Part shown: positions 8,726 to 24,521 of the stretch, in pieces | Position numbering within the stretch: position 1 is the stretch's first letter | Layout of the letters: every line of letters starts with the position of its first letter | Source: a virus | Direction: 5' to 3' (one strand) | Length of the DNA stretch: 24,713 nt | Virus record (IMG/VR): IMGVR_UViG_3300032285_003084 | Coordinates: 1 to 24,713 of that record | The notes under the pieces: generated by a model | What the model was told of the DNA's origin: nothing | The model's input: the letters and a program-made list of their open reading frames with translations, nothing else | The model's database searches: none | Made by a program: the position numbers and the translations under genes

Positions 8726-8847
8726 TGTTTGGCGATAAATGTGAAGTAAGTAATTGTGGTAAACCAGCAAAACATATAGGTGCACTACCAGAATCTGGCA
8801 TTATAGACATGTGTGCAGATTGTTATAATAGATTATATAAGAGATAA
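8725..8847 (+). CDS. Tiny zinc-finger-like protein
   Basis: 40 residues with C6, C11, and CADC (30-33), a four-cysteine set compatible with one zinc knuckle. Coupled on both sides by TAATG overlaps. Not recognised. Confidence 0.6.
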   Translation: MFGDKCEVSNCGKPAKHIGALPESGIIDMCADCYNRLYKR

Positions 8848-9440
8848 TGAAAAAAAATATTACAAATATATCAGATGAGATATATTTAATTAATAATTTT
8901 ATATCTAATGAATCTGCTAAATATATGTCTGAAGTTTTTAATAAACATTTAATAGAGACAGATAGAGAAAATGTTTTAGGAGGACCATCTTCAGATGGGT
9001 TTACTCCATTAGAATGGATAGGCGAATATAAAGATAATGATGAATTTAATGTAGCAATAGACCTTTTAAATGGAATTACATCAGCCATGGCTGGTGTCCT
9101 ATCAGAAAAATATAAAATGCAATTAAGGTGTAAACAATCATTTTTTGGAGCTATGATGGTGGGATCCAACAATGATCTACACATGGATAATTATAGAATT
9201 AAAAAGGATGGGTCTATAGTACCCAGAGAAAATAACGAAAAAGATGTATCTGGAATACTTTATTTAAGTGATTCCTATACTGGCGGAATGCTTGAGTTCC
9301 CAAATCAAAATATTTCAATTAAACCCGACCCTGGATCATTTATTTTTTTTGTGGGGGATACAGATAAGCCGCATAGGGTTACAGAGGTAGAATCTGGCAT
9401 TAGAAATGTATATATTACTTTTTTTGAACCAGTCAACTAG
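8847..9440 (+). CDS. 2OG-Fe(II) oxygenase, prolyl-4-hydroxylase type (copy 1)
   Basis: 197 residues. The Fe(II) triad is H112-x-D114 (LHMDN) and H176 (KPHRV), with R186 (SGIRNVYI) for 2OG; the GGMLEFPNQN..IKPDPGSFIFF strand block is the P4H-family signature. Such enzymes hydroxylate using O2, 2OG and Fe(II), releasing CO2 and succinate. It closes the first monooxygenase/DUF2061 operon. Substrate could be protein, nucleobase or small molecule; sequence does not say. Confidence 0.9.
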   Translation: MKKNITNISDEIYLINNFISNESAKYMSEVFNKHLIETDRENVLGGPSSDGFTPLEWIGEYKDNDEFNVAIDLLNGITSAMAGVLSEKYKMQLRCKQSFFGAMMVGSNNDLHMDNYRIKKDGSIVPRENNEKDVSGILYLSDSYTGGMLEFPNQNISIKPDPGSFIFFVGDTDKPHRVTEVESGIRNVYITFFEPVN

Positions 9441-9459
9441 ATTTAAAAAGTGATATAAT
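9432..9459 (+). promoter_or_regulatory. Promoter of the tiny-gene cluster
   Basis: GTCAAC at 9432-9437, 16-base spacer, perfect TATAAT at 9454-9459, then 6 bases to ATG 9466. Expected start is at or beside 9466. Confidence 0.65.
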
Positions 9460-9465
9460 AGTCTT

Positions 9466-9495
9466 ATGAGCGGATTACTAGTCCCGCTTAAATAA
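9466..9495 (+). promoter_or_regulatory. 5'-terminal hairpin / possible 9-residue leader peptide
   Basis: The predicted transcript start coincides with an ATG opening MSGLLVPLK followed by TAA. The same bases fold: 9467-9473 pair with 9484-9490 (7 bp, one G-U, 10-base loop). A stem at the very 5' end typically protects mRNA; a leaderless leader peptide is the alternative. Confidence 0.45.
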
Positions 9496-9515
9496 ACACC
9501 TATAGGAGAAATAAA

Positions 9516-9731
9516 ATGACAGACGGTATCAATTTGGACGGTTTCACAGCAAATCGTTCATCAAGAGTACAACATAATATTAACGCACATTACTCAGACA
9601 ACACAGGATCAGCATTTGCTGCTTCTGATGTTTCTGCACAAGGTAATGCAGGATTAAATCAAGAAGGATCATCTGCACAACTTCCATTGTCAGGTCCAGA
9701 TTTTTCAGATAGCATTGTAGGTAATATCTAA
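9516..9731 (+). CDS. Small polar protein, first gene of tiny-gene cluster
   Basis: 71 residues rich in Ser, Asn, Gly and Ala, without hydrophobic segments or Cys. A strong AGGAGA ribosome binding site lies 7 bases before the ATG and a dedicated promoter precedes it, implying abundant expression. A virion-decoration or DNA-packaged protein is possible; not recognised. Confidence 0.7.
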   Translation: MTDGINLDGFTANRSSRVQHNINAHYSDNTGSAFAASDVSAQGNAGLNQEGSSAQLPLSGPDFSDSIVGNI

Positions 9732-9874
9732 TGACAACACCTACAACACCTACACCAGTAACACCTACAACCCCAGCACCTACAACTCCAGCTCCAGTAA
9801 CACCTCCAGCAGCACCTGCTGAAGTATCTAGAGCAGACTTTTGGGCAGCTCATTGGGAAAATAGAGGCGTCTAA
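9731..9874 (+). CDS. Pro/Thr-repeat micro-protein
   Basis: 47 residues: about 28 residues of TPTTP/TPAP-type repeats, then a short conserved-looking helix EVSRADFWAAHWENRGV. The start overlaps the preceding stop (TAATG). The Pro/Thr part is a typical extended linker; the aromatic end may be a docking peptide. Could act as a partner of the adjacent tiny proteins. Confidence 0.65.
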   Translation: MTTPTTPTPVTPTTPAPTTPAPVTPPAAPAEVSRADFWAAHWENRGV

Positions 9875-10077
9875 TGTGCACGATGTGCGGATGTGGAATG
9901 TCTGGAAATTCTGGAGATATGAAATCACCAGATATGCCAATGATGACAGTTTCAGATATTTTTAATACATCTATGATGAACAATCAAGTGATGACAAATT
10001 CAATTAATATAACTCCAGAAGTTTCAAATAGAACAGGAATGGAATCTGTTAATTCAAATGGTGCTATTAGAAGCTAA
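9874..10077 (+). CDS. Met/Cys-rich small protein
   Basis: 67 residues beginning MCTMCGCGMSG, with three Cys in six residues and 10 further Met; the rest is Asn/Ser-rich. The cluster could bind a metal (copper-like M/C composition) but no family is recognised. Start overlaps the previous stop. Confidence 0.6.
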   Translation: MCTMCGCGMSGNSGDMKSPDMPMMTVSDIFNTSMMNNQVMTNSINITPEVSNRTGMESVNSNGAIRS

Positions 10078-10078
10078 T

Positions 10079-10234
10079 ATGTTTAATAATATTTTAGATA
10101 ATCAACAACCAATGATTGTAATAACAGATATGTTCGGGGCAGATCTTGACTCTGCAACAGAAAGCGGATTAACCGATAGAGACGCAACGTCTACATTCGT
10201 ATCAACTGGAGATGTAAAAAACGATAATGACTGA
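10079..10234 (+). CDS. Small acidic protein, unknown function
   Basis: 51 residues, acidic (many Asp), no Cys, N-terminus MFNNILDNQQPM. Starts 1 base after the preceding stop and overlaps the next gene by 8 bases. Not recognised. Confidence 0.55.
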   Translation: MFNNILDNQQPMIVITDMFGADLDSATESGLTDRDATSTFVSTGDVKNDND

Positions 10235-10433
10235 TAGCTTTAAAAAAGATGATGGTACTGGCATGACTCCACCGCCAAATAGTGGTGCGGCAGCGGGTGC
10301 TGTTACAAGTAGAGAAGCAACAAGAAAAAATCCCAGACAGGGATTAAAAATTGATCGAAATAAACATGGAATTAGACGAGAAACAAGTACAGTTCCAAGA
10401 CCGCCTAAAAAAACAGGTAGAAAAAAAGTATAA
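10227..10433 (+). CDS. Small basic Pro/Lys/Arg-rich protein
   Basis: 68 residues, disordered N-terminal half (PPPNSGAAAGAV) and a strongly basic C-terminal half ending KKTGRKKV. Composition suggests DNA or RNA binding. Last gene before the terminator at 10447. Confidence 0.6.
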   Translation: MTDSFKKDDGTGMTPPPNSGAAAGAVTSREATRKNPRQGLKIDRNKHGIRRETSTVPRPPKKTGRKKV

Positions 10434-10440
10434 ATATCTA

Positions 10441-10469
10441 TTGCTAATATGTCCCTTATATAGTATACT
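10441..10469 (+). promoter_or_regulatory. Promoter nested in terminator, APS-kinase operon
   Basis: TTGCTA at 10441-10446, 17-base spacer, TATACT at 10464-10469, within the 12-mer TATAGTATACTA also found at 13439 and 17353. Start near 10476 gives a leader of about 37 bases that carries GAGAG before the ATG. Confidence 0.7.
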
Positions 10470-10492
10470 ACTATGTAGGGGATATATTTTTT
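10447..10492 (+). terminator. Terminator hairpin that contains a promoter
   Basis: Bases 10447-10465 pair with 10469-10487 (19 bp including four G-U pairs), loop TAC, followed by five T (10488-10492). It ends the tiny-gene cluster. The -10 of the next promoter forms part of the stem. Confidence 0.75.
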
Positions 10493-10512
10493 AACGAGTA
10501 GAGAGAAATGAA

Positions 10513-11268
10513 ATGATTATTCAAGTAATTGGACTTCCAGGTGCTGGAAAAACAACATATGCCAAAGAATTGGCGGATAGAATTAATGCTATACATTTAA
10601 ATGCAGATGAAGTTAGAGCTGAATTAAATAGTGATCTAGGATTTACAAATGAAGATAGGATTGAGCAAGCACGTAGAATGGGAGCTCTTTCTAGACTTCT
10701 TGCAAAACAAGGGCATCATGTTGTTGTAGATTTTATTAATCCAACAAGTGAAACAAGAGCAGCTTTTGGAAAGCCAGATAAGATTGTTTGGATGAACAGA
10801 AAGCCAGTACGTGATTTTCCAAATACGACAGCAATTTGGGAAAATCCAAAAGAGTTTGATTTAGTTTTTGATGATTTAATTGAATATGAAACAGCAGCAA
10901 GGGTATCCTGTATAGATTTTGGACTGCATGACTGGCGTAAACCAACTACATTAATGCTAGGAAGATATCAGCCTTGGCATGAAGGGCATCATGCTCTTTA
11001 TGAAGAGGCGCAGAATAGAACTGATCAAGTAATGCTTGGTGTAAGAAATACAAAGGGGACAAGTTCAAAAGACCCATTAACATTTGATGAAGTAAAAGGA
11101 TATATATCTCAAGATCCATATATGGATAAAGCTATGGTAATTAAAATGCCTAACATAACTAATATAGTTTATGGTCGTGATGTAGGATATAAGATTGAAC
11201 AAATTAAGTTAGGAGAAGAAATTGAAGCTATTAGTGCTACTGAAAAACGCAAGCAAATGGGTATTTAA
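10513..11268 (+). CDS. APS-kinase-like domain fused to HxGH nucleotidyltransferase
   Basis: 251 residues, two domains. Residues 1-135: P-loop kinase with Walker A GLPGAGKT (7-14) and a VVDFINPTSETR segment resembling adenylylsulfate kinase (CysC). Residues 145-251: cytidylyltransferase-fold domain with LGRYQPWHEGHHALY, whose H156-x-G-H159 binds nucleotide triphosphate, and a closing ISATEKR (240-246) like the ISxTxxR motif of this superfamily. CysC makes PAPS from APS; the second domain could be an ATP-sulfurylase-like or NMN/other adenylyltransferase. Combined sulfate activation is attractive but unproven, since NadM-type fusions exist. The next gene starts inside it on TTG. Confidence 0.82.
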   Translation: MIIQVIGLPGAGKTTYAKELADRINAIHLNADEVRAELNSDLGFTNEDRIEQARRMGALSRLLAKQGHHVVVDFINPTSETRAAFGKPDKIVWMNRKPVRDFPNTTAIWENPKEFDLVFDDLIEYETAARVSCIDFGLHDWRKPTTLMLGRYQPWHEGHHALYEEAQNRTDQVMLGVRNTKGTSSKDPLTFDEVKGYISQDPYMDKAMVIKMPNITNIVYGRDVGYKIEQIKLGEEIEAISATEKRKQMGI

Positions 11269-11563
11269 TCAGTTTGAAAAATCTGGTAAAGCAATTTCTG
11301 ATGCAGAAGAAAGACTTTATTTTGATGAAACTCCAGCAACAGAAATTAACTGGGCGTCTCACGCCAGATCTTTAGCAAAAGCTGTAAGTTGGAGGTTTTT
11401 TGGAAACTTAATTTCTTTTATTATAATTTTTGAATTAACACATGATGGCAAACTTGCTTTGGCTGCTTCTGGTATAGAATTAGTTGTTAAAATAATTTTA
11501 TACTATTATCATGAAAGAGTTTGGAATAAAATTAAATGGGGCAGAAAAGATGATGGAGTTTAA
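11222..11563 (+). CDS. DUF2061 membrane protein, long form
   Basis: 113 residues. The C-terminal 65 are DUF2061: ARSLAKAVSWRFFGN, two hydrophobic helices and YYYHERVWNKIKWG. The N-terminal 48 residues are an extra polar extension. TTG 11222 is supported by AGGAG at 11211-11215, 6 bases upstream, giving a 47-base overlap with the kinase gene. The shared operon of kinase, DUF2061 and monooxygenase repeats the pairing seen at 7589-8582. Confidence 0.85.
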   Translation: MKLLVLLKNASKWVFNQFEKSGKAISDAEERLYFDETPATEINWASHARSLAKAVSWRFFGNLISFIIIFELTHDGKLALAASGIELVVKIILYYYHERVWNKIKWGRKDDGV

Positions 11564-12359
11564 TTGGATATTAAATTCTGGATTATCAGTATCCGATAGG
11601 TCTATACTCATAAAAGATTTAGAAAGATTTGGCTATAACTCAGTTATGCTTGCCTTTAATCAAGGCAACGTAGATCCATTTATTAATGCAACAAATTTAA
11701 TGCAGTATTCAAAGAAATTAAATTTTATAATAGCATTAAGAACATATGCTTTGACAGCTACTTATTGTGCAATGCAATGTAGAGCATTTGAAGAAATAGA
11801 TGGAAGACAACCAATTTTAAATTTGATTAATGGTACAGCTGATCAAGATCAAGAGCTTTTTAATTTAAAAACTAAAAGCATTCAAGAAAGAAGACTCCAT
11901 ACAAGAAAGTTTGCAGAAGACCTAAAATCTCAATGCAATGCAATAATTGGTTTTGGTGGAAGTTCTGATCAGACCATAAAAAATGTTATTGATTTAGGAG
12001 AAATAAGTTTTAATTTATCTTCTGATATTAATAATGAAATTATTGATAATTTAAATAAAAATAATAAAAAGCTTATAGTTAGATATTTTGTTACTGTTAC
12101 AGATGAACTTGTAGATCAAAAAATTATACATGCAAAATTAACCGCAGATACAGTAGGAGATGATGGCCCATATAAAATTGAAGATAGATTAAATAATAAT
12201 TCTATATACGGTACAGAAAAAGAAATTGCAAACTTTTTTATTAATCAATATAAAAAGGGAATCAAAAGTTTTATTATATCGGCGCATGATCAAAACAATA
12301 TTAATGAGATAAGGAAAGTTCATAGTGTCATTTCATTAATAAGAAAGATGGGGTACTAA
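11550..12359 (+). CDS. Luciferase-like monooxygenase, second copy
   Basis: 269 residues. Paralogue of the protein at 7589: shared FGYNSVML, IALRTYALTATYCAMQC, LNLINGT and FIISAHDQNN segments in the same order. ATG 11550 (or 11553) follows GGGG at 11538-11541 and overlaps the DUF2061 gene by 14 bases. Sequence identity between copies looks low, so divergence is old or independent acquisition is likely. The end overlaps the next start. Chemistry as for the first copy (FMNH2 plus O2); substrate unknown. Confidence 0.8.
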   Translation: MMEFNWILNSGLSVSDRSILIKDLERFGYNSVMLAFNQGNVDPFINATNLMQYSKKLNFIIALRTYALTATYCAMQCRAFEEIDGRQPILNLINGTADQDQELFNLKTKSIQERRLHTRKFAEDLKSQCNAIIGFGGSSDQTIKNVIDLGEISFNLSSDINNEIIDNLNKNNKKLIVRYFVTVTDELVDQKIIHAKLTADTVGDDGPYKIEDRLNNNSIYGTEKEIANFFINQYKKGIKSFIISAHDQNNINEIRKVHSVISLIRKMGY

Positions 12360-12934
12360 TGTTTAAACAATTTACATTACAACAACATGAATCTTATAAT
12401 GTATCTGAGATATTTGATATTGTTTCAAAATTTAAATCTGAGTGGCTAGAAGACACATCTAGACAGGAGGGCACCATACATCATTGGAGAACTTACTCTT
12501 ATCACCTGACATGGTACCCGCTTTCCTGGGTTCCAGGAGAAGAATATGTGCCGTCTTATCTGTGTAATAATAAAAAGTTATGGGATCTTATTGATGTAAT
12601 TATAAAAGATTTAGAAATTAAAAATGATGGAAGAGTAGGTAGAGCAACATTAGTTAATTTACCAGCTAATCAGCTTGTCACACCGCATTATGATAAAGCA
12701 TTATATACGCATGTTATAAAAAGATTTCACATTCCAATTATTACTAATGATAGAACTTTATTTAGTGTAGATGATCAGCATGTAAATATGAAAACTGGAG
12801 AATGCTGGAGAGTAAATAATAAATTATTGCACGGTGTTTATAATTTTGGAGATACAGACAGAGTGCATTTAATGATAGATATTATTCCAAATGAGTTGAT
12901 AGGCGATAAAAAATATACTGGAGATCCATATTAA
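12359..12934 (+). CDS. Aspartyl/asparaginyl beta-hydroxylase-like 2OG oxygenase
   Basis: 191 residues. The order LVNLPANQLVTPHYDK (H110-x-D112), RFHIPIITND (R122), MKTGECWRVNN and LLHGVYNFGDTDRVHLMID (H158, R168) is that of the Asp/Asn hydroxylase family rather than the P4H family. Members hydroxylate Asp, Asn or Arg-like side chains or peptides. TAATG coupling to the monooxygenase gene places it in the same operon. This makes the third oxygen-using enzyme type in one transcript. Confidence 0.85.
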   Translation: MFKQFTLQQHESYNVSEIFDIVSKFKSEWLEDTSRQEGTIHHWRTYSYHLTWYPLSWVPGEEYVPSYLCNNKKLWDLIDVIIKDLEIKNDGRVGRATLVNLPANQLVTPHYDKALYTHVIKRFHIPIITNDRTLFSVDDQHVNMKTGECWRVNNKLLHGVYNFGDTDRVHLMIDIIPNELIGDKKYTGDPY

Positions 12935-13023
12935 TGTGCAAACAATGTGGTTCCTGCTCTAAGGAACATGGGTTTAGCATAGATGATGCCGTTGATGAAG
13001 TGGATGGTATGATAGTAATATGA
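12934..13023 (+). CDS. 29-residue Cys-rich micro-protein
   Basis: MCKQCGSCSKEHGF then an acidic end; three Cys within seven residues plus His suggest a metal-binding knuckle. Coupled by overlap on both sides (TAATG at start, ATGA at end), which supports translation of such a short frame. Confidence 0.5.
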   Translation: MCKQCGSCSKEHGFSIDDAVDEVDGMIVI

Positions 13024-13235
13024 GACGTCTTTTAAACAATGTATATACCTTTTTGCCCAAAATGTATCAAGGGGCAGAAGTAAAAGAATTTGATAAAGCA
13101 ATTGATTTAACAATACATACTAAAGCACCAGGAAAATGGCTACTGATCGATTTAGAGACGGGTCAAGAATATATAGGTGATGAAACTCCAAATCAGTATG
13201 GCAGATGGAAAAGATTAAAAGATAAATATGAATGA
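13020..13235 (+). CDS. Small phage-like protein, unknown function
   Basis: 71 residues, basic N-terminus, then GKWLLIDLETGQEYIGDETPN, which has the look of a small beta-sheet domain. ATGA overlap with the gene before, 8-base overlap with the one after. Not recognised. Confidence 0.65.
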   Translation: MRRLLNNVYTFLPKMYQGAEVKEFDKAIDLTIHTKAPGKWLLIDLETGQEYIGDETPNQYGRWKRLKDKYE

Positions 13236-13431
13236 ACCAGTCTGGTGGATCAAATTAAAAAATAGGGCAAAATGGTTTGATAACCATACAGGAACGTTAG
13301 AGTATATTCAAATAATGAATGATTTTGATGTTACTGTAAATTTATCTGCAACATCTGAATACGTATGTGGGGTTTGTGCTGCAAAGATCAAGGCAGGTAG
13401 AATATATGAGCATATTAACCTACACAAATGA
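13228..13431 (+). CDS. Small protein with one CxxC knuckle
   Basis: 67 residues, Trp-rich N-terminus (VWWIKLKNRAKW) and a C-terminal CGVCAAKIKAGRIYEHINLHK with a CxxC and His residues that could complete a zinc site. Last gene of the operon before the promoter at 13444. Not recognised. Confidence 0.65.
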   Translation: MNEPVWWIKLKNRAKWFDNHTGTLEYIQIMNDFDVTVNLSATSEYVCGVCAAKIKAGRIYEHINLHK

Positions 13432-13438
13432 GATAAAA

Positions 13439-13455
13439 TATAGTATACTATACAT
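13439..13455 (+). promoter_or_regulatory. TATAGTATACTA promoter, leaderless
   Basis: The 12-mer TATAGTATACTA (with perfectly palindromic core ATAGTATACTAT at 13440-13451) holds TATACT at 13444-13449, 6 bases before ATG 13456. No clear -35. Confidence 0.6.
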
Positions 13456-13602
13456 ATGATAATCAATTTAATTAAATCTATTAAATGCAAATTTGTAGGG
13501 CACAGCTTAAAGCTTGCTGGCTCATGTCCGTTTACGGGATCAACATATGATTACTGTGAAAAATGTAATGCAATGGTTCCTAGAGAGGTAGCAAATGATT
13601 AA
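13456..13602 (+). CDS. DUF1660-like phage zinc-ribbon protein
   Basis: 48 residues: IKCKFVGHSLK..CPFTGSTYDYCEKCNAMVP. The C-x-F-GH, CPFTG and YxxCxxC arrangement matches my memory of the DUF1660 phage family. Cysteines C11, C24, C34 and C37 plus H16 could bind zinc. Leaderless; overlaps the next gene by 8 bases. Confidence 0.65.
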   Translation: MIINLIKSIKCKFVGHSLKLAGSCPFTGSTYDYCEKCNAMVPREVAND

Positions 13603-14173
13603 TGTAATTAAAAGAGATAACGGAATCTGGGAATACAATAATGTGATAGAAAGCCCAGAAATAATTTTATCAGACTTATTAGCTAATTCATGGTGGTCAG
13701 ATTATACAAATACTGGCGGAGGCGAAACAGTAAAAGGAAGACATACATCTATAGGTGAGGATAGCCCAACATATTCCGTAATCCTAGAAGCATTTGAAAA
13801 AAATATTCAACAATATATATCTGAAAATAATGTAGATATATCAATTAATAATATGGGCAAGGGGTATTGGGGAGTAAGAGAATATCAACCAGAGACATAC
13901 ATGACACCTCATGCTGATATCTATGGTTTTGTAAAAGAAAATGGAAATCCTTCAATTCCAGTTATAACAGCTTTGCTATATTTAAACGATGAATATGAAG
14001 GTGGACAGCTCTCTTTTCCAGACGATAAGCTTATGATTAAGCCAGCAAAAGGATCTATGATCATTTTCCCAAGTAGGTTAGTTCATGGCGTAGAATTGAT
14101 TTCTGGTGGTAATAGATACCTTACAGCAACATATGTTTACGATAAAGATTTTTCAGTTTACGATAAAGATTAA
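13595..14173 (+). CDS. 2OG-Fe(II) oxygenase, P4H type (copy 2)
   Basis: 192 residues. Fe(II) ligands H106-x-D108 (TPHADIY) and H164 (LVHGVE), 2OG Arg R174 (GGNRYLTATYV), and core block YEGGQLSFPDDKLMIKPAKGSMIIFP. The C-terminus repeats VYDKD twice 7 residues apart, with matching DNA repeat, as if recently duplicated. First of five related oxygenase genes in this operon. Confidence 0.9.
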   Translation: MINVIKRDNGIWEYNNVIESPEIILSDLLANSWWSDYTNTGGGETVKGRHTSIGEDSPTYSVILEAFEKNIQQYISENNVDISINNMGKGYWGVREYQPETYMTPHADIYGFVKENGNPSIPVITALLYLNDEYEGGQLSFPDDKLMIKPAKGSMIIFPSRLVHGVELISGGNRYLTATYVYDKDFSVYDKD

Positions 14174-14176
14174 ATT

Positions 14177-14353
14177 ATGACTATTACACTTGATGCTTTT
14201 TGTGTTATTTGTAATAAAAATGTATTAGGAAAACTAACAGAAATGATAGTTTTAGATTCAGGAAAATGGCTATATAAGGGTGAGTGCCCTAATTGCTTTT
14301 ATGAAATTAAAAGAATTATGCCTAAAGTAAAGGAAAATGATGTCAATATATAA
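14177..14353 (+). CDS. Small zinc-ribbon protein
   Basis: 58 residues with CVIC (9-12) and CPNC (37-40), 24 residues apart, the spacing of a two-knuckle ribbon. Overlaps the glutathione peroxidase start. Function unknown. Confidence 0.65.
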   Translation: MTITLDAFCVICNKNVLGKLTEMIVLDSGKWLYKGECPNCFYEIKRIMPKVKENDVNI

Positions 14354-14819
14354 CTACAGTTTTACAGATAATAACAATAACGAGGTATCTTTATCTCAAT
14401 TTAAAGATAAGGTAATCCTTATTGTAAATGTAGCAAGTAAATGTGGATTTACTTCACACTATAGCGGTCTTCAAAAGCTTTATGATAATTATGGAGACAA
14501 AGGGCTTGTTGTTATTGGATTCCCATCCAATCAATTTGGGCAACAAGAGCCAGGAACTGACGAAGAAATTAGAGAGTTCTGTTCAACTAATTACAATGTC
14601 ACATTCCCTATGTCTAAAAAGATTGATGTAATAGGTGATAACGCCCACCCGATATTTAAATATTTAGAACAAGTTACTGGACACCCAGTTCCTTGGAACT
14701 TTACTAAGTTTATTATTAATAAAGAAGAAGCAAATGAGTCAATTGTTGATAATTCTCCAGAAACACATCCAGAATCTCTTGAAATATCATTAAGATATAT
14801 GCTTGGATTAGATAAGTAA
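14340..14819 (+). CDS. Glutathione peroxidase/thiol peroxidase
   Basis: 159 residues. Peroxidatic Cys C35 in NVASKCGFTS, Gln Q65 in FPSNQFGQQEPG and Trp W119 in PWNFTKF are the catalytic triad of the GPx family; a second Cys (C81, EFCSTNYNVTFP) is placed like the resolving Cys of thioredoxin-dependent members. No selenocysteine codon is needed. It reduces H2O2 or lipid peroxides, probably with thioredoxin such as the one encoded at 6013. ATG 14340 is chosen because AGGA ends 5 bases upstream; 14337 is possible. Its setting among oxygenases suggests protection from oxidative by-products. Confidence 0.93.
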   Translation: MSIYNYSFTDNNNNEVSLSQFKDKVILIVNVASKCGFTSHYSGLQKLYDNYGDKGLVVIGFPSNQFGQQEPGTDEEIREFCSTNYNVTFPMSKKIDVIGDNAHPIFKYLEQVTGHPVPWNFTKFIINKEEANESIVDNSPETHPESLEISLRYMLGLDK

Positions 14820-14820
14820 A

Positions 14821-15411
14821 ATGATGAGGCCTGTTCATGACATTGGATCAATAGGAATTTATATTGAAGATTGCTTTGATCAGGATATTATTGATAAATT
14901 AATTTCATTAAGTAATGAAGCTAAAGATAAAAAGTTTGTTAGACATGCATCTAAAGTTTTAATTGATTCAAAAGATCAAAGAGATTTAATTAAAAAAGTA
15001 GATGAAACTGTAATTAATGCAATTCAATTATTTTTTGATAAAACTAATAGAAATATATCTGATTACATAAGGTATCATAATATAGAAATAGAAATTCTTA
15101 CGTGGAAACCAAATGTAAATATTGGGCTGCATGTAGATACAGTACTATACGATGATCTTGAAGTTGTTAGTCCTAGACCAGATATGACAATTTTATTTTA
15201 TTTATCTTCAGACTACGAGGGTGGCGAGATAGAATTTCCAGATCATTCTTTAAAAATAAAACCCCAAGCTGGCAGCATAATCATATTTAAAGCAGATACT
15301 CCTCATCTAGTTAATGCTGTATCAAGTGGGCGAAGAATGACATCTATGGCAAATCTTTATCTTAAATCAAGAAAAGATATTGTTCAATTAGATGAGAATA
15401 GAATTAATTAA
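14821..15411 (+). CDS. 2OG-Fe(II) oxygenase, P4H type (copy 3)
   Basis: 196 residues. H104-x-D106 (GLHVDT), H162 (TPHLVN), R172 (SGRRMTSM), and YEGGEIEFPDHSLKIKPQAG. It shares an N-terminal block (GSIGIYIEDCFDQ) and FFDKTNRNISDY with copy 5, so those two are close paralogues. One base separates it from the peroxidase stop, and its stop overlaps the next start. Confidence 0.9.
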   Translation: MMRPVHDIGSIGIYIEDCFDQDIIDKLISLSNEAKDKKFVRHASKVLIDSKDQRDLIKKVDETVINAIQLFFDKTNRNISDYIRYHNIEIEILTWKPNVNIGLHVDTVLYDDLEVVSPRPDMTILFYLSSDYEGGEIEFPDHSLKIKPQAGSIIIFKADTPHLVNAVSSGRRMTSMANLYLKSRKDIVQLDENRIN

Positions 15412-16094
15412 TGAATAAAGTTTATCAAGTTAAAAATTTTATATCTCAAGAACAAATTGAGACAATTATCAGTGGGTTTAAAGCATTAAAGATAGAAACT
15501 AATGATCCATATGTGAAAACATTTAATGGTTCATTTATATCTTTACCGCAATCTTTTTTAGATCAATCTTTAATAGTGAGAAGCAGTCAAGAGCTATCTT
15601 TATCTGATGAAGATTATGTAAAATATTTAAATGCTAATAAAGTTTTAAATAAAATTTTAACTAAACAATTAGAATTAATTAAAGATACATATCAAAATAA
15701 CATTAGGCAAAGATTTTTAAATTACGTAGTTACTGAAACAGGCGGCGGGTATGATGGATATCATACAGACTCTGCATCTGATTCAGGAGAACCTAGAATG
15801 CCTCAAGGCATGGATCCAGCTATATGGGATAAGATAGATGGCAGATGGAACGATTCAGGCAGATATTGGTATTCGGCAATACTTTATTTGAATAGTGATT
15901 ATAATGGTGGAGAAATTGAATTTTTAGACTATATTAAAATAAAACCAGAGGCTGGGGAATTAGTTTATTTTATAGGAGATAAAGATACTCAACATGGCGT
16001 AAGAAAAGTTTTGTCTGGAGAAAGACATGCATTGATATCATTCTATTGGGATGATATGTCGTATAATATGTATAAAGATTTATTGGAGGAATAA
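15411..16094 (+). CDS. 2OG-Fe(II) oxygenase, P4H type (copy 4)
   Basis: 227 residues, longer than its neighbours because of an insert (SDSGEPRMPQGMDPAIWD) after the HxD motif. H118-x-D120 (GYHTDS), H195 (TQHGVRK), R205 (SGERHALISFYW), NGGEIEFLDYIKIKPEAG. Its FL in place of FP in the GGEIEF block is unusual. TAATG coupling on both sides. Confidence 0.9.
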   Translation: MNKVYQVKNFISQEQIETIISGFKALKIETNDPYVKTFNGSFISLPQSFLDQSLIVRSSQELSLSDEDYVKYLNANKVLNKILTKQLELIKDTYQNNIRQRFLNYVVTETGGGYDGYHTDSASDSGEPRMPQGMDPAIWDKIDGRWNDSGRYWYSAILYLNSDYNGGEIEFLDYIKIKPEAGELVYFIGDKDTQHGVRKVLSGERHALISFYWDDMSYNMYKDLLEE

Positions 16095-16666
16095 TGGAAA
16101 AGTTTTCACCAGTTCAGGAATTGGGAACAGTAGGCATTTTAGTAAGCAATTGCTTACAAGATAATGAATCTTTAATTAAAGGATTAAATCATAAAGAATG
16201 GCTAAGAGAAGTAAGGTCTAACAGCGAAGAGATAGGATCCAAGGCTTATGTTTATGACCTTGAAGATAAAGAAATATATGATACATTACACTATGCCATG
16301 ACATATGCTGCTAAAATGTTTTTAGATAAAACAAATAGAAGCATTCTTGATTATGAAAAAAGATATGATAATTATAAGATATTTAAATGGTCAACTCCAA
16401 TGGATGGGATGGGGGCACATCCCGACAGATGGATGGAAGACGGTGGGGAAGTAGTTCCAGATATTACTTTAGTAATGTATTTAACGGGAGATTTTGAAGG
16501 TGGAGAGTTATTATTTCCTGAATTAAATCAAAACATTAAACCAAAAGCTGGGGATATTGTTGTTTTTGATTCTTCAACAATGCATGGAGTTGCATCAGTT
16601 TTAAATGGAAGAAGAATTACAACACAATTATTTTTATTTAAAAAATCATTAACGGGAGTAAAATAA
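16094..16666 (+). CDS. 2OG-Fe(II) oxygenase, P4H type (copy 5)
   Basis: 190 residues. H109-x-D111 (GAHPDRW), H164 (TMHGVAS), R174 (NGRRITTQLF), FEGGELLFPELNQNIKPKAG. Paralogue of copy 3 (shared VQELGTVGILVSNC and FLDKTNRSILDY blocks). GGAGG lies 5 bases before the ATG. Coupled to both neighbours. Confidence 0.9.
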   Translation: MEKFSPVQELGTVGILVSNCLQDNESLIKGLNHKEWLREVRSNSEEIGSKAYVYDLEDKEIYDTLHYAMTYAAKMFLDKTNRSILDYEKRYDNYKIFKWSTPMDGMGAHPDRWMEDGGEVVPDITLVMYLTGDFEGGELLFPELNQNIKPKAGDIVVFDSSTMHGVASVLNGRRITTQLFLFKKSLTGVK

Positions 16667-17331
16667 TGAAATCTACTAAATTAGCTGATGAAGTATGGTA
16701 TTTTGAAGATGCAATTGATGATGCTGATGAGTTCTTAGAATCTTTGAAAGAGTGGGAACCTAATCCAAATCAAGAATACATGGTGTCCTCAATCATATCA
16801 ACCAAAGAATATCTTAATCTAACAGATGAATCAATCTTTAAATGTTTAGATATATGGTATAAAAACCATGAAACAATGGATCCAACTAAATATAAAGTAT
16901 GCAAAAGAACTCATATATATAAAAGAGGTGCAGGTAAAGGGTATGGACCGCACACTGATTTTAATCGAATGCCAGACGGTACATATGAACAGGTGACAGC
17001 AACGATATTAGCGTATCTTTGTGATCCAGAAGGATACGAGGGCGGAGAGATATACTTCCCAGATTATGATGTTACAATTAAACCAAAGCTAGGTAGTGTA
17101 GTTATATTTGGTAATAAGGTAAAGCATGGAGTCAATGATGTGTTGTCTGGCACAAGAGCAATTGCAAGCGTTTTTCTTGTAAAGAATCGTATATTTTATC
17201 AAGAGATGGGTGCAGATGATCCCAAAAATCCTACTGAAGAAGAAAAAAATAAATTCCATATGTGGGTTCCACAATATGAAGAAAAAAATGCTAATGTCGA
17301 CTTTTCTAAACTAATTAAAGATACAGAATAA
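16666..17331 (+). CDS. 2OG-Fe(II) oxygenase, P4H type (copy 6)
   Basis: 221 residues. H96-x-D98 (GPHTDF), H154 (VKHGVND), R164 (SGTRAIASVF), YEGGEIYFPDYDVTIKPKLG, with a C-terminal extension of about 45 residues rich in Asp/Lys that the other copies lack. Last gene of the oxygenase operon, followed by a new promoter. Confidence 0.9.
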   Translation: MKSTKLADEVWYFEDAIDDADEFLESLKEWEPNPNQEYMVSSIISTKEYLNLTDESIFKCLDIWYKNHETMDPTKYKVCKRTHIYKRGAGKGYGPHTDFNRMPDGTYEQVTATILAYLCDPEGYEGGEIYFPDYDVTIKPKLGSVVIFGNKVKHGVNDVLSGTRAIASVFLVKNRIFYQEMGADDPKNPTEEEKNKFHMWVPQYEEKNANVDFSKLIKDTE

Positions 17332-20520: not shown

Positions 20521-20670
20521 TTACTTAGCCTTTGCTGCTGGTACTTCCTTGGTGAAGGTCACGCCTGCCTTCTCAGCTTCCTGGAGAGCTACCTTAGCTG
20601 CACCTGAGAAACGACCACGAGCTCCAACTGTAATGCCCTTTGACTTAAGATATTCACGCTTTGTTGCCAT
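20521..20670 (-). CDS. Lsr2-like small DNA-binding protein
   Basis: 49 residues. REYLKSKGITVGARGRFSGAAKVALQEAEKAG resembles the C-terminal half of Lsr2 (helix, RGR DNA-contact loop, helix), which binds AT-rich DNA in the minor groove; the N-terminal dimerisation domain is absent. GAAAGGGG gives a strong ribosome binding site. It has the strongest promoter of the - strand block and its own terminator, so it may be abundant. It could bind the AT-rich phage DNA or antagonise host Lsr2; function is inferred. Confidence 0.65.
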   Translation of the reverse strand: MATKREYLKSKGITVGARGRFSGAAKVALQEAEKAGVTFTKEVPAAKAK

Positions 20671-20708
20671 TTGATAATCCCCTTTCAAGAGATAGTTATT
20701 GTTTATTT

Positions 20709-20929: not shown

Positions 20930-21258
20930 TCTTCTTCCTCCTCTTCATATTCCTCAATGATTGATTGATCAATCATCCAGTCACGTACAGCCTCATATAG
21001 ATCCTCTGTTCCATACTCTAGCGAAAAGCCATTCTTGTCAGCCTGCGTCCAAAATAGTTCCCACATTTCTTCTATGTCCATAGTCAAGCAATAGTCAGGT
21101 TCTCCGCCTCCTTGCATGTCCTCATGAATCTGTTTGGCAACATCCCACACCCACACCCATACCAGGGGTTGGCCCACAGGAAGTTCTCCAATACTATCAA
21201 TGATTGCTGTGATGTCTCTATATACATCCTTCATACGTGTTTTCTCTAATAGATCCAT
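20926..21258 (-). CDS. Acidic protein with poly-Glu tail
   Basis: 110 residues, Trp-rich middle (VWVWVWDVAKQI), very acidic end (EEYEEEEEE). DNA-mimic-like acidity is possible but not diagnostic. Start overlaps the preceding stop. Not recognised. Confidence 0.65.
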   Translation of the reverse strand: MDLLEKTRMKDVYRDITAIIDSIGELPVGQPLVWVWVWDVAKQIHEDMQGGGEPDYCLTMDIEEMWELFWTQADKNGFSLEYGTEDLYEAVRDWMIDQSIIEEYEEEEEE

Positions 21259-21530
21259 TATTCTTTTTCTCCAATCGCAAATGATAGGTCATATGTTAAC
21301 TTGTATAGAGAGGTCAGAGTATCTAGTACTCCCTCCGCCCTTGTGCGGTCCATAGAAAGCATTGCGTCAGAGTAGTCGCCTTCCTCTTCCTCAGTTGCAA
21401 TCTCTGTCAACTCTTGCTCAGCAATGAGCATTAGATTCTTTAGTTCTCCGTGCATGATGTCAAGGCCTGATACTCCTGCATTGACCATGCGTTGCAAATG
21501 GGGCGGAAGCCCAATGTCTTCTGAGTTCAT
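21258..21530 (-). CDS. Helical protein, unknown function
   Basis: 90 residues, acidic and Leu-rich. GAAAGGA is placed 8 bases before the ATG, and a TTGTCAGTGG-type promoter lies 27 bases upstream, inside the previous gene. Not recognised. Confidence 0.65.
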   Translation of the reverse strand: MNSEDIGLPPHLQRMVNAGVSGLDIMHGELKNLMLIAEQELTEIATEEEEGDYSDAMLSMDRTRAEGVLDTLTSLYKLTYDLSFAIGEKE

Positions 21531-21531
21531 A

Positions 21532-21756
21532 TTATTTCCTTTCGTTTGAAGACGTTAGTATATCACGAGCCACTGACAATAAGTGGCGGGTAGCAATGAG
21601 TTCTCCTGTATTATTCATATCAGTTATCTCTAATTCCTCATACTCATCAGAATCATAATCACCATCAAATGAATCCATCATATCTTGAAGCTTTTCAGCA
21701 TCTTGTAATAGACTAATCTCATGTAGTTCCATATAAACGATCATTTGATTTAACAT
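21532..21756 (-). CDS. Acidic helical protein, unknown function
   Basis: 74 residues from ATG 21756 (GGGGA upstream), rich in Asp/Glu (SFDGDYDSDEYEELE). The upstream TTG 21768 is less likely. Coupled to the preceding gene by overlap; its 3' end contains promoter P1. Not recognised. Confidence 0.65.
   Translation of the reverse strand: MLNQMIVYMELHEISLLQDAEKLQDMMDSFDGDYDSDEYEELEITDMNNTGELIATRHLLSVARDILTSSNERK
21557..21579 (-). promoter_or_regulatory. TTGTCAGTGG-type promoter P1
   Basis: TTGTCAGTGG (21579-21570), 7 bases, TATACT (21562-21557); 26 bases then ATG 21530, with AACGAAAG in the leader. Lies within the end of the upstream gene. Confidence 0.7.
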
Positions 21757-21917
21757 TACTGTCCCCAATACTCTTGAATTAAATTCATAGCCATATGGAT
21801 ATTACAATCACAATCTCCACCATTCATATTTTCCATGAATTCAATATGTGAATAGTTATCCTCATATATTGCTGTAACTAATTCATCTATTGTGTATGGT
21901 TTATAATCTGTTTCCAT
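21756..21917 (-). CDS. Small acidic protein, unknown function
   Basis: 53 residues from METDYKPYTI, with a C-terminal segment containing GGDCDCNIHM (CxC and His). GGCGGAGG ends about 6 bases before the ATG. The longer upstream start is rejected for lack of a ribosome binding site. Confidence 0.6.
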   Translation of the reverse strand: METDYKPYTIDELVTAIYEDNYSHIEFMENMNGGDCDCNIHMAMNLIQEYWGQ

Positions 21918-22645
21918 TATGCCTCCGCCTTTACTAAATGTCCGTGAATTGAGCATTCTGCTAATGAATCCATGTCGGCTTCACCTGTGTAATTACAATC
22001 AGAGCATAGTTGATTTTCGCATTCTTCGCAATACTCTAGAGTGTCTATTGAATCACAGTCTTTACATTTAGTTTCATATTCATTTTGGCTAATCATTTGA
22101 CCACGCAAGAATTCAATTTCTCCACCCCAACCTGTTTCTTCTTCATAAGATAAAGTCATAAGTAGATTAGGATATTGTGCAGAAAGTTTTTCAATTGCAG
22201 GAAGAGGTGGAGCCCATGCAGTATTAAAGTTATAATAAACTACTTTGTTATCTCCATTGTCTACAGGACCTTCCATATATGTCTCAGGATATTTTTCATC
22301 CTCTGCTACGGCTACATCCCATTTGGTTCCCCATTCACGATTATTAAATGAATACCAAGACATATCGGTCTCTGCTTGCTTCATTGTGTCTGCCCACCAA
22401 TTAGGGTCGTTGACATCAAGTTCAGAACGCTTAGGCTGTGCCTTGTATGCTTCAAGGTCGGTGGGAGCAATAATGTTGCGGAAACTAAAGATAGGATTAA
22501 CATACTTACGTTGTTTAATACCAAAAGCCAAATCACCATTAGATTCAATATAATCTACAAATGGCTTATTCATTTGTTCAACCAATTTTTCTACTTGGTC
22601 AGGGTTACCTTCAATTGTTAATCCGTTATAACACCAATTTGGCAT
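21917..22645 (-). CDS. Api92-like ferredoxin-fold protein with C-terminal zinc ribbon
   Basis: 242 residues. MPNWCYNGLTIEG is the typical opening of the Api92-like/DUF1281-type phage family, with the NFNTAWAPPLPAIEKLS block; its function is unknown. Unusually it continues with a cysteine cluster (CKDCDSID..CEECENQLCSDC) that should bind one or two zincs, followed by an Ala/His tail. ATG 22645 has GAAAGGAT upstream and lies 27 bases after promoter P2. Confidence 0.8.
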   Translation of the reverse strand: MPNWCYNGLTIEGNPDQVEKLVEQMNKPFVDYIESNGDLAFGIKQRKYVNPIFSFRNIIAPTDLEAYKAQPKRSELDVNDPNWWADTMKQAETDMSWYSFNNREWGTKWDVAVAEDEKYPETYMEGPVDNGDNKVVYYNFNTAWAPPLPAIEKLSAQYPNLLMTLSYEEETGWGGEIEFLRGQMISQNEYETKCKDCDSIDTLEYCEECENQLCSDCNYTGEADMDSLAECSIHGHLVKAEA

Positions 22646-22672
22646 TTTATATCCTTTCGTTGATATAAGAGA

Positions 22673-22695
22673 ATTATACATTGGACCACTGACAA
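22673..22695 (-). promoter_or_regulatory. TTGTCAGTGG-type promoter P2
   Basis: TTGTCAGTGG (22695-22686), 7 bases, TATAAT (22678-22673), 27 bases then ATG 22645, leader with AACGAAAG. Confidence 0.75.
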
Positions 22696-22758
22696 ATAGA
22701 ATAGGAAATGCCTGTGATGCTCACCACATTGATCGATTCCGATCTCATATTGTGAAAT

Positions 22759-22787
22759 TTCAGGGTTTTATACTTGACATCGTAAAT
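22759..22787 (+). repeat. 29-bp bipartite repeat, copy C
   Basis: TTCAGGG, 15 bases, CGTAAAT, then AAAATTTATTACCC. In the gap upstream of P2. Confidence 0.8.
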
Positions 22788-22827
22788 AAAATTTATTACC
22801 CTTATTCTTTTGCGGGCAAAATAAAAC

Positions 22828-22849
22828 CCCCCCAGGATCAGCTGGGGGG
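22828..22849 (-). terminator. Intrinsic terminator after 22976 gene
   Basis: CCCCCCAG/CTGGGGGG stem (8 bp) with 6-base loop; on the - strand it runs into GTTTTATTTT. Confidence 0.85.
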
Positions 22850-22901
22850 TTATGAATATGGCTGCTAGATTTCCAACGAAAGAAATAAACCGCTTTACTT
22901 A

Positions 22902-22929
22902 GCACCTGGCCCGTAGACTAATTAGGTGC
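22902..22929 (-). other. Stem-loop in gap between gene and terminator
   Basis: GCACCT (22902-22907) pairs with AGGTGC (22924-22929) across 16 bases. It would form part of the 3' region of the 22976 transcript, or a small RNA. Confidence 0.35.
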
Positions 22930-22975
22930 ACCATTTCATTTCTCATTAAAACCAAGACCATAGGTCCTGAATTAA

Positions 22976-23350
22976 TTATACCATAGCAGGCTCTTCTAGT
23001 TGACTGTATTTATTTACAAATACATCCAAGGATGTTTTAAATACTTCGGTCTCCATGTCTTCCTCAAACAATGTAAATGTTTGTTCGGTCCAATTAATAA
23101 CAGGCACCTTGTGCTCGTTGTCTGCAATTGTATTTACATAAATACCCCAACCTGTTTGGCTAGGCCATTCATCATTAATCAATTGACTAATAGCAATACG
23201 TGTTGCATAACCTTCGTCGGTCCAGCGAGGACGTGCTGCCTCTACAGCATTTGCTAAATTTTCTAGCATTCTGTGTCCAGCCCAGTGTCCATACAGATAG
23301 ACGGTGTCACCCTTGCTATCTTTAAAACCAAAGTTTGCTCTATCTCCCAT
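22976..23350 (-). CDS. Conserved phage protein MGDRANF family, unknown function
   Basis: 124 residues: MGDRANFGFKDSKGDTVYLYGHWAGHRMLENLANAV, then EGYATRIAISQLIND, TGWGIYVNTIADNEHKVPVINW. Proteins of this type recur in actinophages as I recall, with no known role. Start has a GGCGGA upstream. Confidence 0.75.
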   Translation of the reverse strand: MGDRANFGFKDSKGDTVYLYGHWAGHRMLENLANAVEAARPRWTDEGYATRIAISQLINDEWPSQTGWGIYVNTIADNEHKVPVINWTEQTFTLFEEDMETEVFKTSLDVFVNKYSQLEEPAMV

Positions 23351-23351
23351 T

Positions 23352-23528
23352 TTATTCCGCCATTTCTTTTTCGTAGTTGAGTAATTGTATCATCTCGTGG
23401 GCCCAGTCGACAAGTACTTCGCCCTGTGCATTTTTATGATGTCCACAAAAATAAAGAGACATGCTGTCTTTTTTTGCTTCCCACATAGCTTGTGCTGCAC
23501 ATTGATCACACTTAAGCCATTCAGTCAT
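23352..23528 (-). CDS. DUF7455-like zinc-finger protein
   Basis: 58 residues. LKCDQCAAQAMWEAKK..LYFCGHHKNAQ has the CDxCxAxA..FCGHH pattern of the DUF7455 family, common in actinobacteria and their phages; Cys/His should bind zinc. Start overlaps the stop of the next - strand gene (TAATG). Confidence 0.75.
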   Translation of the reverse strand: MTEWLKCDQCAAQAMWEAKKDSMSLYFCGHHKNAQGEVLVDWAHEMIQLLNYEKEMAE

Positions 23529-23674
23529 TAGAGTTGATTCCCTTCAATCATTTCCGAAAGTCTATCTAAAATCCAAGAATCAATATCTGCGATATCAATC
23601 TCTGATAGCTTCTCCATAATTTCTTCACGAGCAAATTTATACCCGTCTTGAAATCCATCTCTATAGTCTGACAT
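23528..23674 (-). CDS. 48-residue acidic protein
   Basis: MSDYRDGFQDGYKFAREE followed by Ile/Asp/Glu-rich helices. GGAGA lies upstream near 23683. Similar 'DGYxxAREE' micro-proteins occur in actinophages; function unknown. Confidence 0.6.
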   Translation of the reverse strand: MSDYRDGFQDGYKFAREEIMEKLSEIDIADIDSWILDRLSEMIEGNQL

Positions 23675-23682
23675 GTTATCTC

Positions 23683-23886
23683 CTAATATCCTGTCGCTTC
23701 TTTTTCTGACCAGTAAGATTCTGTTAAACCATACTTATCACGAATGCGACTTACTTTCTCAATGCTACCAGTTCCGATGTTGAATGTCAATGGTCCACAT
23801 TGCTCTGGGTCTAATCCAATTAACTCCGCATCCCAGATAGCCCTCGCAAAGGCTACCTGAGATGGAGCGGTAAGTTCAAAGTACAT
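23683..23886 (-). CDS. Small protein, unknown function
   Basis: 67 residues, MYFELTAPSQVAFARAIWDAEL with GPLTFNIGTGSIEKV. Start overlaps the preceding stop (TAATG). Not recognised. Confidence 0.65.
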   Translation of the reverse strand: MYFELTAPSQVAFARAIWDAELIGLDPEQCGPLTFNIGTGSIEKVSRIRDKYGLTESYWSEKEATGY

Positions 23887-24491
23887 TAGTAGGCACCCTC
23901 TTCAACACGGTCAATCTCAAAATTATTGACTGCCATCTCTGATGCATATGAATCAACAGTTAGATTAGAAGAAACAAAGTCTTCGATACCATCAAAGTCA
24001 CCTGTTAAATCAACTTCAACAGTTGCATCAACACGAACCCAAACAGTAATTTCGATTTCCTTAGTTAGTGGAACATCGAACATCTCTGCAATTTCAGCCA
24101 ATGATTCTTGGTCTGATGAATCAGCATAGTTCTCTTCAAGAAATGTACGAAGTTGTGATTCTTTTTTGTACCATTCATTTTGCTTGTTTGTTAAATTCTT
24201 GTTCTGCCAAACCATATGACGAATATCTGATTCAGTATATGTCTTTGTAGTTACGACGTCGTTCTCGACCCAATCAAGAGTCATGACCTGTGGTGTTGTT
24301 TCCATTTGTTCCTCTTTCGTTGTTGTTGGTTGTATTGTAGCATCATCCACTGACAATAATGTGGTATTTGAACCACAGACGCATGTGAAACTGGTCACAT
24401 CATTAAATGTATAACCAGCCTGCAATGTATATTCAATTAAAGCATCGCATTCGCTATTGCATACGAATGTATACTTGGTCCATTTTGTCAT
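23886..24491 (-). CDS. Zinc-ribbon plus acidic domain protein
   Basis: 201 residues from ATG 24491 (MTKWTKYTF). Residues 1-45 carry C11, C15, C37 and C39 (CNSEC, FTCVCG), a zinc-ribbon pattern; an internal ATG at 24305 opens METTPQVM with AGAGG upstream and its own TTGTCAGTGG promoter, so a second product of 139 residues is likely. The rest is acidic and beta-rich (VWVRVDATVEVDLTGDFDG). The first start is leaderless downstream of promoter P4. Confidence 0.7.
   Translation of the reverse strand: MTKWTKYTFVCNSECDALIEYTLQAGYTFNDVTSFTCVCGSNTTLLSVDDATIQPTTTKEEQMETTPQVMTLDWVENDVVTTKTYTESDIRHMVWQNKNLTNKQNEWYKKESQLRTFLEENYADSSDQESLAEIAEMFDVPLTKEIEITVWVRVDATVEVDLTGDFDGIEDFVSSNLTVDSYASEMAVNNFEIDRVEEGAY
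24334..24356 (-). promoter_or_regulatory. TTGTCAGTGG-type promoter P3 (internal)
   Basis: TTGTCAGTGG (24356-24347), 7 bases, TACAAT (24339-24334), 28 bases then ATG 24305; leader has AACGAAAG and AGAGG. It is inside the 24491 gene. Confidence 0.7.
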
Positions 24492-24498
24492 AGGCGAT

Positions 24499-24521
24499 AT
24501 TGTACACCAGCCCACTGACAT
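24499..24521 (-). promoter_or_regulatory. ATGTCAGTGG-type promoter P4, leaderless
   Basis: ATGTCAGTGG (24521-24512), 7 bases, TACAAT (24504-24499), 7 bases then ATG 24491. No ribosome binding site. Confidence 0.6.

Follow-up and report, generated by a model that had tools for sequence, protein, structure and literature searches.

Is a conserved box between -35 and -10 an activator site? A phage promoter set and a candidate small RNA matching its leaders

The virus record IMGVR_UViG_3300032285_003084 (IMG/VR), a complete record of 24.7 kb that represents a fragment of a tailed phage and was analysed over its whole length (24,713 nucleotides, termed here the ‘window’), raises a question of promoter recognition: what reads a short box that recurs on its minus strand at an unvarying distance from a -10 element? 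Four copies of this box, TGTCAGTGG, are found in the window, all of them on the minus strand and each exactly 7 nucleotides (nt) before a -10 hexamer; a first-order Markov model predicts 0.04 copies on that strand, and the pattern TANNNT occurs at 3.0% of positions. The results described below were all obtained from sequence alone. They make it reasonably probable, in our judgement, that the box is a lineage-specific activator site standing in place of the -35 element, a proposal to which a small RNA (sRNA) directed at the leaders of the same genes may plausibly be added as a second layer.

The box, its geometry and its distribution

At site 1 the box lies at 21570-21578 (core TGTCAG, 21573-21578) and is followed after 7 nt by the -10 TATACT (21557-21562), with TGA before it (an ‘extended’ -10), by a leader containing AAACGAAAGG (21531-21556) and by a gene for a protein of 90 amino acids that begins MNSEDIGLPPHL (21258-21530). 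Site 2 has its box at 22686-22694, the -10 TATAAT at 22673-22678 and a leader containing CAACGAAAGG at 22646-22672, and precedes a gene (21917-22645) whose Api92-like/DUF1281_C product begins MPNWCYN. The site 3 box (24347-24355), its -10 TACAAT (24334-24339) and its leader containing CAACGAAAGAGG (24306-24333) follow the same plan, with the box placed inside the open reading frame that starts at site 4; there, a box at 24512-24520 is followed by the -10 TACAAT at 24499-24504. A preliminary description had reported all four sites, with the box 7 nt before the -10 and leaders of 26-28 nt at three of them, and both statements hold on the minus strand: the distance from -10 to ATG is 26, 27 and 28 nt at sites 1, 2 and 3. 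At site 4 it is 7 nt, and a leaderless mRNA is predicted there because the ATG follows so closely.

Relatives of the window were found by way of the protein encoded at 22976-23350, which retrieved 48 as a single query and 80 as an alignment. The long members measure about 115 kb, and their backbone genes, among them those for DNA polymerase III alpha and portal, are closest to those of Karimac and other Streptomyces phages in the Stanwilliamsviridae, with a portal about 57% identical. Neither integrase nor resolvase (PF00589, PF00239) was detected in any of 13 long members searched, and these long members are taken to be virulent actinobacteriophages.

Among the 48 relatives, every one of 265 copies of TGTCAGTGG has TANNNT at exactly 7 nt, and all 155 unique exact boxes have a -10, with none scattered between genes. 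The full element can be written as WWWTGTCAGWSS-N7-TAYAAT, with TG at -15/-14 and the invariant core TGTCAG at -28 to -23. When sites are grouped by the N-terminus encoded downstream, 41 promoter families result, whose equally weighted consensus is WWW-TGTCAG-W-S-S-N4-x-T(68%)G(83%)-N-TAYAAT, with WWW at -31 to -29; the core and the TA...T of the -10 are fixed in this consensus by site selection, and the tail, the TG and the WWW are not. Across the 41 groups the box (which spans -31 to -20) and the -10 are fixed and there is no -35 consensus; upstream of the -35 position nothing is conserved but a weak A at -41. The bases that follow TGTCAG vary (TGG, ACC, TGC, TCC or CCC), and variants with one mismatch indicate that the first six bases of the box are nearly untouchable; the variant TGTCAGTGC also acts as a promoter element by these measures (46/46), as do a few other variants. 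The 10-mer proposed as the motif in the preliminary description is thus real and yet covers only part of a class that is defined by an invariant TGTCAG core with three variable final bases.

The spacing N10 after TGTCAG accounts for 683 of the 873 unique TGTCAG occurrences in the clade, the next best spacing accounting for 137. On the block strand, TGTCAG-N10-TANNNT occurs 13-19 times in 14 of 15 long genomes and 5 times in the remaining one, whose block is cut by contig ends, against 0-2 matches per strand for a reversed control pattern in the 15 genomes. Nearly all sites fall inside one block of small genes, on one strand; the block has the look of an early region made up of small genes. An unbiased scan of hexamers and spacings in two whole genomes ranks TGTCAG-N10 first on the block strand, with no comparable signal on the opposite strand of the two. 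A ribosome binding site and start codon lie at most 75 nt downstream of 80% of 762 unique box sites, as compared to 8% of other TGTCAG occurrences. A wider motif search had been set beforehand as a possible refutation of the cassette, and these figures instead tie the box to -10s and gene starts; the sequence comparisons confirm the cassette as real and far above chance. Counts taken from related contigs are not independent events, and better measures are the 41 promoter groups together with 12 further, divergent contigs that have the TGTCAG core in common. The literature searched contained no description of TGTCAG phage promoters.

Origin of the box promoters and candidates for their reader

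In the small-gene region of Karimac, the promoters are of the form TTGACA-N17 (31 occur genome-wide, on the coding strand) and there are no boxes at all. Two other relatives (G017, which ends before most of the block, and G018) likewise have canonical promoters, and two more (G019 and G020) carry both canonical and box promoters, some of them composite; an example is TTGAAA-A-TGTCAG-N10-TAGGAT, where a single base separates the -35 hexamer from the box and the whole spacer measures 17. These composite promoters (L310/L311) show what appears from their sequence to be an intermediate state. The DUF1281 gene (that of site 2 in the window) and the DUF932 gene are preceded by TTGACA-N17/18 in related lineages; in the window clade both have the box instead, and the DUF932 promoter there keeps TAGACA in addition to it. 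We infer that the box was inserted into the spacers of sigma-A promoters and that the -35 then often decayed, the order from canonical to box being suggested because the canonical form is widely spread. Replacement of promoter specificity would thus be visible from sequence, from canonical promoters in Karimac and other relatives through the composite forms of L310/L311 to the box of the window clade, all of them ahead of the same genes, and the rewiring of a whole phage promoter set to a new activator, a question seldom open to study, becomes directly testable.

More distant contigs that bear the core have as little as a DUF932 or a tail-fibre domain in common, and some of these have AATGTCAGTGGT-N6-TATAAT without a -35. 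A different spacer box, AGATTCTAAAG-N4-TATAAT, occupies the same role in DSL-LC01 (L263; 26 sites) and in one further contig (G016, L307; 33 sites). Promoters of this second class have a leader, ACGACGAAAGGACAA, lie in a block on one strand and lack a -35.

In the mechanism that we favour, the host’s sigma-A RNA polymerase would read the -10 and its TG extension, and a dedicated DNA-binding activator bound to WWWTGTCAGWSS, at about -31 to -20, would take over the -35 contact, in substitution for that made by sigma region 4; the box would in this way coordinate about 15 small-gene transcription units within the one block. A site of this kind is suggested because the phase to the -10 is invariant and the box is conserved where the -35 is not. 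The preliminary description had placed the box between -35 and -10 and proposed an activator-type logic for it, and this is supported by the fixed spacing, the absent -35 consensus and the replacement of TTGACA-N17. The identification of the reader as a protein activator, its encoding by the phage and the time of its action are further steps of interpretation; a phage-encoded reader is favoured because no gene with sigma-70 region 2 (PF04542) was found in 13 of 13 long members, with positive controls (divergent sigma factors could still exist), and because ten bacterial metagenome-assembled genomes, most of them not known hosts, have no enrichment of the TGTCAG box. A phage sigma factor was considered as the reader and set aside on the same absence of PF04542.

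Several points weigh against an activator. Reader searches have identified no such protein, and a sigma-A promoter can work with a TG extension and no activator. A residual -35 (at least four of six matches) is present in 34% of box sites as compared to about 10% at control distances, so that replacement of the -35 is partial, about a third of box promoters keeping at least that much of it. Two protein families, A (138 amino acids, G004 67218-67634) and B (55-60 amino acids, G004 66872-67051; G004 is L254), each under its own box promoter, occur in 12 of 15 box contigs, in none of five non-box contigs and in none of 50,697 named phages; any gene of the block would show the same pattern of co-occurrence. 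An AlphaFold model of family A has no match below E 0.001 and no recognizable DNA-binding fold, and that of family B matches a small SH3/KOW-like barrel weakly and no DNA-binding protein, and both families are leads only. A short gene at the end of the box block (20521-20688, minus strand), whose product resembles the DNA-binding domain of Lsr2 (PHROG 6269, E 6e-8), was rejected as the reader; such a protein is expected to bind AT-rich DNA generally and not a TGTCAG box.

Three other readers can be envisaged. The box might be the operator of a phage-encoded repressor, placed in sigma-A spacers for shut-off of the block or for superinfection exclusion, and the spacer is indeed a classic site of repression; the box is also asymmetric and points in the direction of transcription, as L5-type sites do (PMC9283540), a fair -35 is kept in some box promoters, and the extended -10s could drive these promoters unaided. 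Such an operator, however, predicts a retained -35, which most groups have lost, and a free phase to the -10 rather than the strict one observed; exact boxes sit at promoters and not between genes, and 13 of 13 long members without integrase or resolvase leave no lysogeny to maintain, so we consider this explanation unlikely. An immunity system of the ‘stoperator’ type was rejected on the absence of integrase and resolvase.

Recognition by the host, whether through RNA polymerase itself (sigma domain 3 or the beta-prime zipper), CarD, RbpA or a host activator, would account for the same core in phage lineages that have little else in common, a shared host being the explanation, and agrees with the lack of any obvious phage regulator. 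The ten genomes without enrichment (with the limit already given on their status as hosts) argue against it, as do the box-less TTGACA-N17/18 promoters that G019, G020, G027 and G030 also possess and the different box of DSL-LC01-type phages, and we regard it as quite improbable. Two attempts to find the host from the window’s own proteins returned no matches for a host-like surface protein and distant matches only for a thioredoxin. The candidate reader named in the preliminary description, the WhiB-family protein encoded at 2213-2632 on the plus strand, would act through sigma region 4; its gene is present in 13 of 13 long box genomes searched, and the Wbl protein WhiB7 does bind the primary sigma factor (PMC3905903). 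Its presence does not track with the box: Karimac, where the -35s are canonical and no box occurs, has an orthologue, and the gene is also present in the phages with a TCTAAAG box. The protein has the same architecture in box-bearing and box-less relatives, with no AT-hook-like tail recognizable by eye in the box lineages, and the DNA contacts of WhiB7 are made in an AT-rich stretch that precedes the -35 (PMC3905903), whereas the box is downstream. This candidate was therefore rejected, and very little likelihood is left to it.

The shared leader and a candidate small RNA

The three window leaders of 26-28 nt have AACGAAAG in common. On the block strand of three relatives, AACGAAAG falls within 75 nt of a box in 9 of 9 cases (G001), 9 of 9 (G004) and 10 of 14 (G012), and it is present in 65% of box leaders as opposed to 9% of control leaders. 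It is the AAC before GAAAG that marks the box genes, and AACGAAAG appears on these counts to be largely specific to them; GAAAGG pairs with the actinobacterial anti-Shine-Dalgarno sequence and would serve as a Shine-Dalgarno element. What the earlier reading missed is that this leader may exceed the role of a ribosome binding site: a conserved RNA has a loop that matches it.

That RNA, a putative trans-acting sRNA of about 150 nt with a conserved structure (22818-22968, minus strand, both ends approximate), is located between the gene at 22976-23350 and site 2. An extended -10, TGGTATAAT (22975-22983, minus strand), lies just upstream of it, where it overlaps the stop codon of the gene before, and is found at this place in 56 of 59 unique sequences; an intrinsic terminator (22828-22849, minus strand) closes the RNA and separates it from site 2, with a T-run after it in 84 of 87 cases. 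AGTCAA-N10 before the -10 of the RNA in some relatives was considered as a variant box and rejected, the spacing being 19 in the window and the conservation being attributed to coding. The apical loop carries an invariant CUUUCGUUGG (22873-22882, minus strand), which is the exact complement of the leader sequence CCAACGAAAG; CTTTCGTTGG, the exact reverse complement of CCAACGAAAG, occurs once, on the sense strand, in each of three genomes examined. The loop 10-mer is present in 14 of 14 sequences collected by position; the 51 unique versions of the RNA were collected using the loop 10-mer itself.

A structure drawn by hand has three stems: one that closes it, one in which GC/AU/CG swaps occur, and one that bears the apical loop UUUCGUUG, which is closed by an invariant C-G. 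In an alignment of 22 sequences, 95.4% of the cells of this structure are paired, and its covariation is 0.270, as compared to 0.133 after shuffling and at most 0.082 for structures slid along the alignment. The resulting model matches 14 of 15 long genomes, and no Rfam family matches the RNA, which is a candidate for a new RNA family on the evidence of its sequence. Complementarity between loop and leader is exact over 8-10 nt for leaders with AACGAAAG/CCAACGAAAG, and the predicted duplex with the three window leaders has an energy of -13.4 to -15.2 kcal/mol, as compared to -8.7 to -9.8 for the same leaders with a generic anti-Shine-Dalgarno tail. The RNA is a probable trans-acting sRNA for the leaders of the box genes: it may bind their ribosome binding sites and shut down translation as it accumulates, the direction of the effect being inferred.

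A simpler account, which concerns the leader only and is compatible with any reading of the box, is that AACGAAAG is an extended Shine-Dalgarno element in an A/C-rich leader and that its match to the loop is a coincidence or reflects some other role of the RNA. The pairing of GAAAGG noted above is in its favour. So are two observations that weigh against an sRNA acting on these leaders: in DSL-LC01 a similar leader, ACGACGAAAGG, is conserved to the same degree, and the sense strand has no RNA that matches it, and the loop-leader match was noticed after the fact. The sRNA is further weakened by G025, in which nine copies of AACGAAAG are accompanied by no RNA that could be found, by the absence of homologs outside the window clade, apart from one doubtful match in G027 (E 0.09, outside the box block), and by single-sequence folding, in which the loop is only partly open, its exposure resting on the drawn structure. 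Against the simpler account stand the AAC that marks box genes, with the 9% and 65% frequencies of AACGAAAG in control and box leaders, and a loop that is invariant while the stems covary; we place it a little short of an even chance.

Taken in combination, the two elements suggest a compact two-layer control system, of which we found no earlier description. In its full form, which we put forward tentatively and think rather doubtful, the regulon would be defined twice, once by a spacer activator box that replaces the -35 across lineages and once by a dedicated sRNA loop that switches translation of the group. If the sRNA layer is true, one RNA would silence a whole regulon translationally. 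Gene control in uncultured actinobacterial phages is almost unstudied, and actinobacterial genetics would gain useful tools from a compact promoter box together with a leader-specific RNA.

Nested starts, other genes and comparison with known systems

Sites 3 and 4 belong to a single gene. From site 4, a long isoform of 201 amino acids beginning MTKWTKYTFVCNSEC, with an N-terminal Cys motif, is predicted (23886-24491, minus strand); from site 3, a short isoform of 139 amino acids beginning METTPQV, without the Cys motif (23886-24305, minus strand). The site 4 -10 is 6 or 7 nt from the ATG in 84 of 84 relatives, and site 3, inside the site 4 reading frame, has its own ribosome binding site and an in-frame ATG in all 84, so that one gene with two isoforms from nested promoters is predicted from sequence. 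Another box promoter that lies about 7 nt from an ATG is that of a gp88-like gene (L206 4069 and relatives; 23 unique sequences), which suggests a leaderless start there as well.

Elsewhere in the window, the plus strand encodes a secreted, surface-layer-like protein of host type (6525-7505), for which short-peptide patterns found no relatives in the genome collection, and a series of 2OG-Fe(II)-oxygenase-like genes (8847-17331), of which 13595-14173 was confirmed by Pfam and the others were judged by eye; the relatives have many such genes too. DSL-LC01, whose source is Dishui Lake, has the protein encoded at 22976-23350 at 45% identity, and a freshwater habitat may be supposed for the other contigs.

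Among known phages, Karimac has the genome backbone in common with the window clade and differs in its TTGACA-N17 promoters without a box, and DSL-LC01 resembles that clade in having small genes preceded by a similar leader and by a spacer box beside an extended -10, this box being the unrelated GATTCTAAAG-N4-TATAAT. The operators and stoperators of cluster A mycobacteriophages are, like the box, short asymmetric sites repeated in one orientation to transcription (PMC9283540); here, by contrast, the site keeps a fixed phase to the -10, is placed at gene starts and occurs in phages with no detected integrase. WhiB7/Wbl promoters have in common an actinobacterial sigma-A context and, in these phages, an encoded Wbl protein, and differ in that the WhiB7 site is AT-rich and precedes the -35 (PMC3905903), the box being downstream and the Wbl gene not tracking it. 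The RNA resembles phage trans-acting sRNAs in its structure, its own promoter-like -10, its terminator and a predicted exposed loop complementary to several ribosome binding sites; it differs in belonging to no Rfam family and in the prediction that its single loop matches the leaders throughout a regulon defined by its promoters.

The closest parallel is provided by the middle promoters of T4, which depend on sigma appropriation by AsiA and MotA and in which the MotA box replaces the -35 (PMC2988021). Both systems have a phage box with an AT-rich start (WWWTG...) upstream of a sigma -10 and coordinate many genes, both have a good -10 (TAYAAT here) and a dispensable -35 (with partial matches in a third of the promoters here), and the TGn of about half of the T4 middle promoters resembles the TG extension described above (PMC2988021). 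The MotA consensus WWWTGCTTtA does not fit WWWTGTCAGWSS, whose TGTCAG core occurs in all box lineages. Scans of selected proteins with Pfam and PHROG, none of them a search aimed at MotA or AsiA, found neither protein. The MotA box is centred at -30 and separated from the -10 by 12 +/-1 bp, whereas in these actinobacterial phages the distance is invariant, at 7 bp for TGTCAGTGG or 10 bp for TGTCAG, and the box ends nearer to the -10, at -20 or -23. By analogy, then, the box promoters would work like MotA promoters, which are their nearest model, without being members of that class.

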